Shown piece after piece: positions 26,631 through 30,083 of a stretch of DNA of 30,083 nucleotides. This DNA comes from a virus. The stretch's first letter is position 1. Every line of letters starts with the position of its first letter. The notes under the pieces are model-generated. The model had not been told where the DNA came from. It searched no databases and saw nothing but the letters and a program-made list of their open reading frames with translations. The stretch covers positions 1-30,083 of IMG/VR virus record IMGVR_UViG_3300042868_001731; one strand, 5' to 3'. The position numbers and the translations under genes are program-made.

Positions 26631-27036
26631 GGATGACCACTCGTTCGATCTTTGCAAACTCCAGGGGCGCGCCGTCTGCGCCGGTCAGCTCGTGCGCCTG
26701 GGTTTCCTTCCACTTCATCTGGGTCTTGGACCACCAGATCATGGCCGCCGTGTCGCCGCCCATTGCCTTCTGGAACAGAGTGCGACCGACGCCAGAGTTG
26801 GCCTTGGCCTTGCCGGCCACCAGCTCGGTGGCAAAGTGCTTGCGCAGCGTGTCGGTGTCGATTCCATCGCGCACCAGCACTGCGATCTGCTCGATCGGCA
26901 GGCCGTATCCTGAGAGCGCTTCGACCTGTTTGCGCTCGGCATCGGTCGGCTCAAATGCTGGCCTGCCAGCGCCTGGTCGAGCACCGCCATTGGGTCCTCG
27001 CTTTTTTAAGACCGATTTTTCAGTTTTCGTTGCCAT
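26596..27036 (-). CDS. Terminase small subunit
   Basis: A 146-residue protein, ATG 27036 with GGAGG six bases upstream. It has a basic start with NGGARPGAGRPAF (16-28), then a helix-turn-helix-like part (LSGYGLPIEQIAVLVRDGI, about 41-59, and DTLRKHFATELVAG) and a helical oligomerisation region (LFQKAMGGDTAAMIWWSKTQ). The GARPGAGRP motif plus HTH followed by TerL is typical. Small terminases recognise the packaging site. It overlaps the methyltransferase gene by 17 bases. Confidence 0.88.
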   Translation of the reverse strand: MATKTEKSVLKKRGPNGGARPGAGRPAFEPTDAERKQVEALSGYGLPIEQIAVLVRDGIDTDTLRKHFATELVAGKAKANSGVGRTLFQKAMGGDTAAMIWWSKTQMKWKETQAHELTGADGAPLEFAKIERVVIRGKADAENSDA

Positions 27037-28111
27037 TTTTTACCTCCGCGAAAGGTTTTCCGGTTTCTGCGTGTGTTGCGATTTTGCCAGTGAAGTCCTG
27101 CCAACGCTTGACGATCACATCGACAAACTTTGGGTCCAGTTCCATCAGTCTTGCTTTGCGTCCAGTCTTTTCGCATGCGATCAGCGTTGATCCAGAGCCA
27201 CCAAACAAATCCAAGATGATCTGGTCTTTTTTGCTGCTGTTGTTGATTGCACGTTCTGGCAACTCAATTGGTTTCTGTGTTGGGTGAAAATCGTTGCGCT
27301 GCTCTTTTTTCAATTCCCAGACTGTCTTTTCATCTGTCGGACCAAACCACTGAGGCGATGAACCATCCTTGTGAGCATAAATGCATGGCTCGCAGTTTGG
27401 TATGTACTGAGACATGAAAGCACCAAGACCAGATCGAACTTTGTACCACTGGATGATCGCTCTCAGTTTTAGTGGTAAATCAGATAATGCCGCAAATGTT
27501 TCGACGCTTTTTCCAGATGCATACCAGACATAAAACGCAGCATGATCATGCGTGACAATGTGCGCGACTGACAATGCACCATAAAACAGACCTGTCAGAT
27601 TTTCACCTTCTAGTGCATCATTTTTGATCTGAGTGCGCTTTTTTGTATTGTGACCACCTTCGTATGCAACACCATAAGGTGGATCAGTGAACACCATGTC
27701 AGCCTTCTGGCCATCCATGAGTTTCTCCACCGCATCGATGCTAGTCGAGTCACCACACATTAGCCGGTGCTTTCCCAGAATCCAAACATCGCCAAGAACA
27801 GTGACTGGATTCACTGGCACTTCTGGAACATCATCCTCGTCAGTTTGACCAGGCTCGATTTCCTCTGGCATCAAGGCTGCGATCTCCTCATCTGTGAACC
27901 CCACCAAGTCCAGATCAAATCCAAGATCACCTAGCTCGCCCAGCTCGAGCGCCAGCAGCTCGTTGTCCCAGCCAGCGTTCAGCGCCAGCTTGTTGTCAGC
28001 GATGACGTAGGCGCGCTTCTGGGCATCGGTCCAGCCTGCCGCGACCATGACCGGCAATGATGCCATGCCGAGTTTGCGAGCTGCCATCACGCGACCATGA
28101 CCGGCAATGAT
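27020..28111 (-). CDS. DNA N4/N6 methyltransferase (C-terminal part of ParB-N/methylase, frame-shifted by duplication)
   Basis: The frame homologous to the family runs from about 28111 (second IIAGHGR copy) to the stop at 27020; it is formally open to a GTG at 28294. Motif IV DPPY lies at 27674-27685 and the SAM-binding FGGSGS at about 27188-27205, with HPTQKP between; DPPY before FxGxG is the beta-type order of N6-adenine/N4-cytosine methylases. The ParB/Srx-like N-terminal domain is encoded by 28087-28341 in another frame because of the 50-bp duplication. Restored length is 423 residues. An internal ATG at 28087 could give a truncated enzyme. The catalytic half is markedly AT-richer than its surroundings. 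Likely protects phage DNA from restriction. Confidence 0.85.
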   Translation of the reverse strand: MIAGHGRVMAARKLGMASLPVMVAAGWTDAQKRAYVIADNKLALNAGWDNELLALELGELGDLGFDLDLVGFTDEEIAALMPEEIEPGQTDEDDVPEVPVNPVTVLGDVWILGKHRLMCGDSTSIDAVEKLMDGQKADMVFTDPPYGVAYEGGHNTKKRTQIKNDALEGENLTGLFYGALSVAHIVTHDHAAFYVWYASGKSVETFAALSDLPLKLRAIIQWYKVRSGLGAFMSQYIPNCEPCIYAHKDGSSPQWFGPTDEKTVWELKKEQRNDFHPTQKPIELPERAINNSSKKDQIILDLFGGSGSTLIACEKTGRKARLMELDPKFVDVIVKRWQDFTGKIATHAETGKPFAEVKNGNEN

Positions 28112-28162
28112 GCCATGCCGAGTTTGCGAGCTGCCATCACGCGACCATGACCGGCAATGATG
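28041..28162 (-). repeat. 50-bp tandem repeat, 2.44 copies, breaking a reading frame
   Basis: Two exact 50-base units (28041-28090 and 28091-28140) are followed by the first 22 bases of a third (28141-28162). Fifty is not a multiple of three, so the extra unit shifts the ParB-N/methyltransferase frame. Removing one unit rejoins both frames. Confidence 0.95.
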
Positions 28163-28341
28163 CTGCCGGACTCGTCCACCAGGACAGCGGTCGTGAAGCC
28201 CCACTCGCGGATGCTTGCCGCGATCTGGGCCACCTGTTCCTCGCTGTGCGTGCGCGAGTTCTTGGCGTATGGCACCAGCTTTTCGATGGGCCACTGCGCG
28301 ACCTTATCGGCTGGATTTGTTTTGTGGGATTTTGTGGTCAT
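28087..28341 (-). CDS. ParB-N domain part of the methyltransferase gene (truncated by duplication)
   Basis: ATG 28341 with GGAGGAG upstream and ATGA overlap with the DUF3310 gene is the authentic start. The 84 residues form a ParB/Srx-type N-terminal domain: VAQWPIEKLVPYAKNSRTHS, QIAASIREWGFTTAVLVDES and the hallmark IIAGHGRVMAARKLGM with LPVMVA. The family places this domain before a DNA methylase, where it probably helps DNA binding. The stop TGA at 28087 arises only because of the repeated unit; without one copy the frame continues AAGWTDAQKRAYVIADNKLA into the methylase. As it stands, the product is a short ParB-N peptide. Confidence 0.82.
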   Translation of the reverse strand: MTTKSHKTNPADKVAQWPIEKLVPYAKNSRTHSEEQVAQIAASIREWGFTTAVLVDESGSIIAGHGRVMAARKLGMASLPVMVA

Positions 28342-28553
28342 GCTGCATTCTCCTCCAACTCGATCAACTTGTCCAAGTAGTGCCTGGCTTTGCGCAGGTC
28401 GTCGACGCCGCCCTTGTCACGCCATCGGCTGACGTACTTGACGATGTTGCCCTCGAAGTAGCCGAGCTGGTTGGCTGCGATGAAGTCCCAGGGCTGGATG
28501 GTCTTGGCCTTGTAGTGCTGGCCGCCGACCTGGATGTCGTTTGCTGCTGTCAT
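28338..28553 (-). CDS. DUF3310 protein
   Basis: A 71-residue protein, ATG 28553 with GAGGAAG seven bases upstream. QVGGQHYKAKTIQPWDFIAA (8-27), YFEGNIVKYVSRWRDKGG (32-49) and DDLRKARHYLDKLIEL (51-66) match DUF3310 (SaV-type) proteins, small helical proteins common in phage replication regions and sometimes called nucleotide kinases without proof. It is the first gene after the candidate origin and overlaps the methylase gene by four bases. Confidence 0.88.
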   Translation of the reverse strand: MTAANDIQVGGQHYKAKTIQPWDFIAANQLGYFEGNIVKYVSRWRDKGGVDDLRKARHYLDKLIELEENAA

Positions 28554-28573: not shown

Positions 28574-28775
28574 CTGTGGATAACTTTTCACCACGTTCTA
28601 TGTGGCCTCGGTACCGAAAAGCGCCGCAGCGTTTGGTAACTGGTAACCCCCCCTAAAGGGGGGGATTACGTTACGTTACCGAAATCGCCGCCTTTGCCCC
28701 AGGTAACTCATATCGTTTTTTTCCGTTCTGTTACCAGTTACCGATGCCTGCCTGTGGATAACTCTGTGGATAACT
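28574..28775. other. Candidate replication origin: three DnaA boxes and GGTAAC repeats
   Basis: This lies in the 227-base gap 28554-28780. TGTGGATAA (perfect DnaA box TTATCCACA on the minus strand) occurs at 28575-28583, 28753-28761 and 28765-28773, each within a 12-base CTGTGGATAACT; the last two are head-to-tail. Six GGTAAC/GTTACC hexamers stand between them, including an exact 13-bp inverted repeat (28635-28647 and 28730-28742), a C7-TAAA-G7 hairpin (28647-28664) and an AT-rich patch near 28709-28722. The gene upstream in transcription is the replication ATPase. No coding sequence is seen. Confidence 0.6.
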
Positions 28776-28780
28776 CATGG

Positions 28781-30083
28781 TCATCGCTCCGACTTTCGGA
28801 TCAGCATGGAGCTGGCGTGCGCATCGTTGACCACCAACCAGCCATGCTCGAAGGCCTCGATGATCTCGGCCACCAGCAGGTCTGCGATGGGTTTGCCGGG
28901 GCTGCTGGGCTTGATGTACTGCTTGGCCGAGGCCTCGCTCACGTCCATCTTCTGGACCAGGTAGTCGACCATTGCCGACCTGCTTAGGTAGGGTAAACCA
29001 TTACGCTCCTCGGCACCTGATGACCACCAGGCGTTCTCGAAGGTCTTGCGATGGCTGTCGATCTTGCTGTCCTTCTTGGCTGCTGCTGGCGCCTGAGCTT
29101 GCGCAATCACCGCGGAGGTGACCGGCTGGTTGTCCTCGTCATACCAGCCAGGGATGGTGACCTGCTGCAGCTCGACGTGGACGGTCTGGGCCAGCTCGGC
29201 GTCCTTGGACTTGCGCTGGACGATCTGCATGGGCACGCCATCCTTGCCTGGCACGATGCTGATCTCGATGTCCAGAGCGCCGCGCCAGGCGCTGGAGCCG
29301 CGTGCTCGGTGCTGGGCCTCTTCGGCCACGCCAGTGTGGTGGACCAGGATCACGCTGCAGTTGAACTCGTTCATCAGGCTGTTGCAGGCATCCAGCATGG
29401 TCTTGGCATCCTGGGCACTGTTCTCATCGCCGGCCAGGAATCGGTGCAGGGTGTCGACCACGATGATGGCCGGGTTCTCCGGCAGGCCTCGCACCTGTTC
29501 GACCACCTGCAGATAGCCGGCCGGGGTGTTGAGGTCGCAGCCGTCCTTGGACAGCCACATGGCCAGGGAGCCGGCCTGGTGGTGGTGCTTCCAGGCTGCC
29601 ACGCGCCCACGCAGGCCGTGGTGGCCTTCGCCGGCCAGGTAGACCACATTGCCTGGCCGCACCTTCTGGCCGCACCAGTCGGACATGCCGCTGGCCATGC
29701 GCAGGCACCAGTCCAGGACCACGAAGGTCTTGCCGCCACCCGATGGGCCGTGGACCATGATCAGCGCCTGGCTCTGCAGCCAGCGCTTGACCAGCCAGGA
29801 GATCGGGGCCGGCTGGGCCGAGAAGTCGTCGGCCGGGATCAGCCAGTTGTCCTTTGCCGGTGAAAGCAGCCCTGCCAGGTCATGGCCTGCCTGTGCATAA
29901 TCGTTGGCATCCATGCCCTCGATTGGAGGCATCACCACGCGCGCGCCGAACTTGGCGCTGGCCTGGTCGGCATACTTCTGGCCGACACCTCCCTTGTCAT
30001 GATCGGCCACGATGACGATGGTCTGCTGCTGGCCATACATCTCGCGCAGTGTGCCTGTCACCGGCACCAGGTTGCTGGCGCTG
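28781..30083 (-). CDS. TOPRIM domain plus RepA-like AAA ATPase, replicative helicase/primase (5' end outside window)
   Basis: The frame is open to the right edge, so the start is outside; GTG 30067 is internal. Residue numbers here count from that GTG. The end of a TOPRIM domain (IVIVADHDKGGVG, 17-29; DANDY, 53-57) is followed by a RecA/RepA-type ATPase: Walker A GPSGGGKT (107-114), Walker B IIVVDTLHRF (201-210) and sensor VILVHHTG (239-246) with RGSSAWRG (256-263). The C-terminus has a predicted winged helix-like part (LSRSAMVDYLVQKMDV). Such proteins combine primase-type TOPRIM with hexameric helicase, in the manner of phage primase-helicases. It ends next to the candidate origin. Confidence 0.87.
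   Translation of the reverse strand, partial: SASNLVPVTGTLREMYGQQQTIVIVADHDKGGVGQKYADQASAKFGARVVMPPIEGMDANDYAQAGHDLAGLLSPAKDNWLIPADDFSAQPAPISWLVKRWLQSQALIMVHGPSGGGKTFVVLDWCLRMASGMSDWCGQKVRPGNVVYLAGEGHHGLRGRVAAWKHHHQAGSLAMWLSKDGCDLNTPAGYLQVVEQVRGLPENPAIIVVDTLHRFLAGDENSAQDAKTMLDACNSLMNEFNCSVILVHHTGVAEEAQHRARGSSAWRGALDIEISIVPGKDGVPMQIVQRKSKDAELAQTVHVELQQVTIPGWYDEDNQPVTSAVIAQAQAPAAAKKDSKIDSHRKTFENAWWSSGAEERNGLPYLSRSAMVDYLVQKMDVSEASAKQYIKPSSPGKPIADLLVAEIIEAFEHGWLVVNDAHASSMLIRKSER

Follow-up and report, generated by a model that had tools for sequence, protein, structure and literature searches.

Analysis of the 227-bp gap behind the primase-helicase gene of this phage (positions 28554-28780) revealed a compact set of conserved elements, and the gap with its DnaA boxes is very probably the replication origin of the phage. 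Judging by its sequence, we hold with high confidence that the primase-helicase encoded by the phage itself would recognise this origin, while host DnaA would be an accessory factor at flanking boxes in this clade. The window, by which we mean the whole stretch of DNA that was analysed, covers 30,083 bases of a tailed phage genome, a fragment encoding a P22-type portal, a terminase and head proteins. All genes around the gap lie on the minus strand, and the gap separates the stop codon (28781) of a Toprim plus AAA_25 (RSF1010 RepA-like) primase-helicase gene (28781-30083, minus strand, 5' end outside the window) from the start codon (28553) of a DUF3310 gene (28338-28553, minus strand), the downstream border of the putative origin. 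The single strand of the gap folds better than shuffled sequences (z −2.6), and the gap gave no Rfam match to a known structured RNA.

Several features of the adjoining region were recorded alongside. The DUF3310 gene matches gene bbp48 of Bordetella phage BPP-1 at the DNA level (74% over 180 bp). Within the neighbouring ParB_N/DNA-methylase gene, a 50-bp unit is repeated 2.5 times at 100% identity (28040-28163) so that the ParB_N and methylase domains are read in different frames (ORFs 28087-28341 and 27020-28294); this could be a fault of the assembly or a genuine repeat that switches frames. The methylase stretch (27001-28000) has a G+C content of 48% compared with about 60% in its surroundings, which suggests recent acquisition.

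Three exact copies of the DnaA box TTATCCACA occur in the gap, all on the minus strand, and these are the only exact copies in the whole window, for which a first-order Markov model predicts 0.056. Box 1 (28765-28773), located right after the primase-helicase stop codon, and box 2 (28753-28761) follow each other head-to-tail with a 12-bp step as CTGTGGATAACT units (28752-28776), while box 3 (28575-28583), about 22 nt upstream of the DUF3310 start codon, starts 178 bases from the start of box 2 at 28753. The probability of three exact boxes in one 202-nt stretch is approximately 2e-9 over the window, while boxes allowing one mismatch are not enriched (five in total, three exact and two with one mismatch, versus 2.6 expected). 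The initial annotation of this DNA had described three same-strand boxes, a tandem pair and one 178 bases away, and had called a chance occurrence very unlikely; its description is correct in every detail and the figures bear out its judgement. It had also proposed a search for the same boxes in related phages, and among the 65 clade relatives with enough sequence (window included) at least two exact boxes were found in 60, with near-fixed spacing. Three exact boxes are present in 47 of these relatives, two in 13, one in two and none in three, so that at least one is found in 62 of 65, and the clade holds 169 exact boxes against 0.1 expected. Among the 47 three-box relatives, the step from box 1 to box 2 is 12 bp in 35 and 11 bp in 12, and that from box 2 to box 3 is 178-179 in 35.

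In 20 long relatives, nearly all boxes were located in the primase region, with one extra box in a 60-kb contig. This distribution bears on DnaA titration by the phage, also raised in the initial annotation. In such a scheme, growing numbers of phage copies would sequester host DnaA at the boxes and so stop host initiation. DnaA would indeed be expected to bind high-affinity consensus boxes carried on replicating DNA, but titration requires neither position nor spacing, and only three boxes per genome are found, all at the putative origin and at fixed spacing, with no other exact ones in nearly all long relatives. Titration is thus not supported and appears very improbable.

Six GGTAAC/GTTACC iterons, overlooked in the initial annotation, lie between the DnaA boxes, three on each strand. 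Iterons 1 (28737-28742), 2 (28730-28735) and 4 (28675-28680) read GGTAAC on the minus strand, and iterons 3 (28702-28707), 5 (28642-28647) and 6 (28635-28640) have the opposite orientation on the plus strand. Such a density of six copies in 230 nt was not approached in 1000 shuffles, where any six-letter word reached at most four copies. The boxes also enclose three further elements that had been missed, all listed on the minus strand: an A7 tract (28716-28722) that is conserved in the clade and represents a candidate bend or unwinding element, a GGGGCAA element (28694-28700), and a hairpin of the form CCCCCCC-TTTA-GGGGGGG (28647-28664). In addition, a CGCTGCGGCG element (28622-28631, minus strand) follows the right-hand iterons. 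A role of the hairpin as an intrinsic terminator was considered and rejected, as no such terminator was found and no T run is present.

This arrangement extends beyond the clade. A repeated short word was detected at the same place behind the primase-helicase gene in 137 relatives, using more than 25 different words (GGTAAC, GGGAAC, GGTACA, GGTTCA, GGGACA, GGGTCA, GGGGGC and many more), and the copies within a locus change in concert. Most iteron-bearing relatives share the layout with a different word, with or without DnaA boxes. Among 99 representatives, a GGGGCR element is present in 67 (15.6 expected), TGCGG in 58 (21 expected), and a hairpin with a TTTA/TATA-type apex in 67, the latter with 38 different stems; the stem sequence thus varies among relatives, while pairing and apex are kept. 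Loci of the L095-L112 and L175-L214 type carry a longer insertion in the recognition region of the protein (GSRRNLIDGK) and have neither a gap nor iterons behind the primase gene, so their origin must lie elsewhere.

The DnaA boxes are distributed differently from the iterons. Outside the clade, exact boxes were found in only one of 77 other iteron phages (L216, with three), and inside it one subclade (L047, L053, L054, L061 and L066) has lost its boxes or retains degenerate ones. Because the boxes are mostly missing outside the clade, we regard them as the add-on and the iterons as the constant part, and as the subclade and most distant relatives do without intact boxes, origins of this type cannot depend on DnaA. 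Several iteron classes have boxes on either side of the array, as a pair towards the primase gene and a single one beyond, or show part of this pattern; loci of the L071 type have one box, on the far side. In locus L082, whose iteron word GGGTCA differs from that of the window, three boxes in the same two-plus-one layout lie 0-200 nt past the primase stop codon, in the orientation opposite to that of the window clade.

These observations also bear on the suggestion that iterons and primase-helicase constitute the origin while the boxes act on transcription, with DnaA repressing or timing the DUF3310/late operon or forming a roadblock behind the primase gene. DnaA is generally known as a transcription regulator, and box 3 lies close to the DUF3310 start codon; however, no promoter-like site was found in the gap (one weak site is located at 28375-28347), and the boxes flank the array in several iteron classes, with their spacing kept while the downstream gene changes. 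We therefore consider a purely transcriptional role unlikely and favour a role of the boxes in replication from the putative origin.

The proposed reader of the iterons is encoded directly in front of them. The last approximately 100 residues of the primase-helicase are predicted with high confidence (pLDDT 94.6) to adopt a winged-helix fold (28784-29065, minus strand; residues 340-433 of the partial protein), so that primase, helicase and C-terminal winged helix are all part of one protein. Fold matches of this domain comprise linker histones, SmtB/ArsR-type repressors and other winged helices (Z ≤ 6.9), and the P4 origin-binding domain is absent among these listed, generic matches. The helicase core matches RSF1010 RepA by sequence (E 4e-07), and its best Foldseek match is 1nlf. 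The same C-terminal winged helix is also present in a Prim_Pol-named protein of another phage (BFVD A0A6J5RWR5; 48% identity, TM 0.95), which indicates that the origin reader may move between replication proteins. In loci L242-L246, the winged-helix C-terminus is swapped for unrelated sequence, yet a GGTACA iteron array directly follows, and a second type of reader may therefore exist.

Direct comparison of protein and repeat revealed that the iteron word and the recognition helix covary. In the window, the recognition helix and the following loop are encoded at 28898-28936 (minus strand), including the codon of Q388 (28919-28921, minus strand), which corresponds to residue 628 of full-length relatives. 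Across 59 close relatives, residue 628 is Q in 34 of 34 GGTAAC loci and V in 25 of 25 GGAAC loci, and when both groups were compared over the whole 673-residue protein, the positions separating them were found in or just past the recognition helix (628, 634 and 635, more weakly 612). In a wider set, GGTAAC occurs with Q in 42 cases, M in seven and L in one, and GGAAC with V in 28 of 28; distant followers of the rule include L161 (V, GGAACA) as well as L107, L120, L191 and L197 (Q, GGTAAC). A single residue is not the whole code, as L174 carries Q but has GGTACA iterons. On a tree built without the winged-helix domain, word and residue 628 each switch 10 times, with agreement in all six supported independent pairs (sign test on those six pairs alone, p 0.03). 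Among 94 representatives, a partial Mantel test showed that a 14-residue recognition segment predicts the word after correction for the remaining domain and the protein body (r 0.49, 0 of 999 permutations); the latter two have almost no predictive value (0.09 and 0.10).

Helix and iterons lie within approximately 250 nt of each other and modules clearly move between phages, so their agreement could in principle come from neighbouring DNA being exchanged as one block by recombination, with no contact between protein and repeat. However, protein columns nearer the iterons carry little information on the word, and two pairs, L005/L009 and L069/L012, have different helix codons followed by approximately 110 nt of near identity that include the gene end and box 1; identity then drops to only about 60% in the iteron region, before box 3 and the following gene match again. 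A single recombination block is insufficient here, because both helix codons and iterons differ across a stretch that stays nearly identical. The proteins of L006 and L009 differ at 13 positions, three of them in the recognition region, and their iterons differ throughout. As the agreement furthermore extends to the distant lineages L107, L161 and L191, we judge block exchange to be a most unlikely explanation and prefer recognition of the iterons by the winged helix.

The small HTH regulator gene (phrog_18104) located upstream of the primase in relatives was evaluated as another candidate reader and rejected, since none of its three families follows the iteron word. The same result weighs against the view that the site is a control region instead of an origin, with the repeats acting as operators for a phage repressor or regulator. 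Iteron-like operators do exist and this HTH gene would be a candidate partner, but it is the C-terminus of the primase-helicase that tracks the word, and the gap holds no promoter. Because a repeat-binding helicase-primase points to an origin, we assign only a slight probability to the control-region reading and retain that of an origin.

GC skew, a further check put forward in the initial annotation, was computed for six longer genomes and the window and speaks neither for nor against an origin at the site. The minimum lies 113 bp from the site in G009 only, with no clean switch at the site elsewhere: in XX1924, PB15 and G002 it falls 2.4-2.5 kb upstream, near a divergent promoter, and in G004, G016 and the window it lies elsewhere, with no signal at the site.

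From these sequence features and from known systems, we infer the following mechanism. The recognition helix of the winged-helix domain would bind the six GGTAAC iterons that immediately follow its gene, thereby loading the RepA-like helicase next to them at the A-tract, the GGGGCAA element and the hairpin; there the primase-helicase would unwind the DNA and prime synthesis. In this clade, host DnaA bound at the two primase-side boxes and the one far-side box may help to open or shape the origin, a contribution that, taken alone, we propose with moderate confidence. DnaA-assisted initiation, as suggested in the initial annotation, is thus the best-supported role of the boxes, given their conservation at a very probable phage origin, but the core of the site appears to be the iterons read by the phage primase-helicase and not DnaA.

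On the basis of sequence, a candidate origin and its reader can be recognised in considerably more than a hundred uncultured phages as well as in four isolates, namely Idiomarinaceae phage 1N2-2, Alteromonas phages PB15 and XX1924 (both with GGTTCA iterons in the gap that follows the primase gene), and Salicola phage CGphi29. A search of bacterial genomes for a host retrieved no close relative and 16 distant ones, nearly all located on short contigs of metagenome bins; L251, from a Comamonadaceae bin, combines CGTAAC iterons with one DnaA box. No description of these origins was found in the open-access literature, a coverage that leaves out most subscription journals. We consider it likely that these loci form an origin family, widespread in phages, in which one protein serves as initiator, helicase and primase; helix and iterons would switch together through more than 25 words (Q or V with GGTAAC or GGAAC), amounting to a natural recognition code that defines separate replication-compatibility groups, and some clades would have added host DnaA boxes. 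Host DnaA would accordingly be an optional addition and not the core of the origin, and it is more surprising that a proposed initiator helix and origin repeats covary in nature. While the origins of most phages known from metagenomes only are unknown, here a candidate origin and its reader can both be identified. Because helix and repeat change as a pair, initiator specificity, its evolution and the competition between co-infecting phages become open to direct testing.

Several known systems share parts of this organisation. Iteron plasmids such as P1 oriR, RK2 oriV, pSC101 and F combine iterons and host DnaA boxes with a winged-helix initiator, and P1 oriR has two arrays of DnaA boxes (PMC4980987). 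The present site likewise places multiple copies of a single short repeat next to DnaA boxes; however, these plasmids use separate Rep proteins that recruit host DnaB, whereas the proposed iteron reader described here forms one protein with the helicase and primase of a phage, not a plasmid. In RSF1010, iterons, helicase and primase work together and hairpins are priming sites (PMC4234260). Its RepA resembles the helicase core described here in both sequence and fold, but RepA, RepB' and RepC are three separate proteins as opposed to one, and our clade adds DnaA boxes. The crenarchaeal plasmid pRN1 has a stem-loop origin directly downstream of the ORF904 gene, as shown by deletion (PMC4234260); ORF904 is also a primase-helicase with a C-terminal winged helix, although it combines a Prim-Pol domain with an SF3 helicase and has no iterons. 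The P4 alpha protein unites primase, helicase and a repeat-binding winged helix in one polypeptide acting at its own origin (PMC4234260), an architecture shared by the protein described here, for which repeat binding is predicted. In contrast to P4 alpha with its SF3 helicase, the helicase is RecA/RepA-like (AAA_25), the iteron words differ by lineage, the iterons lie directly behind the gene, and DnaA boxes are added in the clade. The system would thus work like P4 alpha but stand outside that family, because its helicase belongs to another superfamily, and by analogy its nearest mechanisms are those of P4 alpha and pRN1 ORF904.
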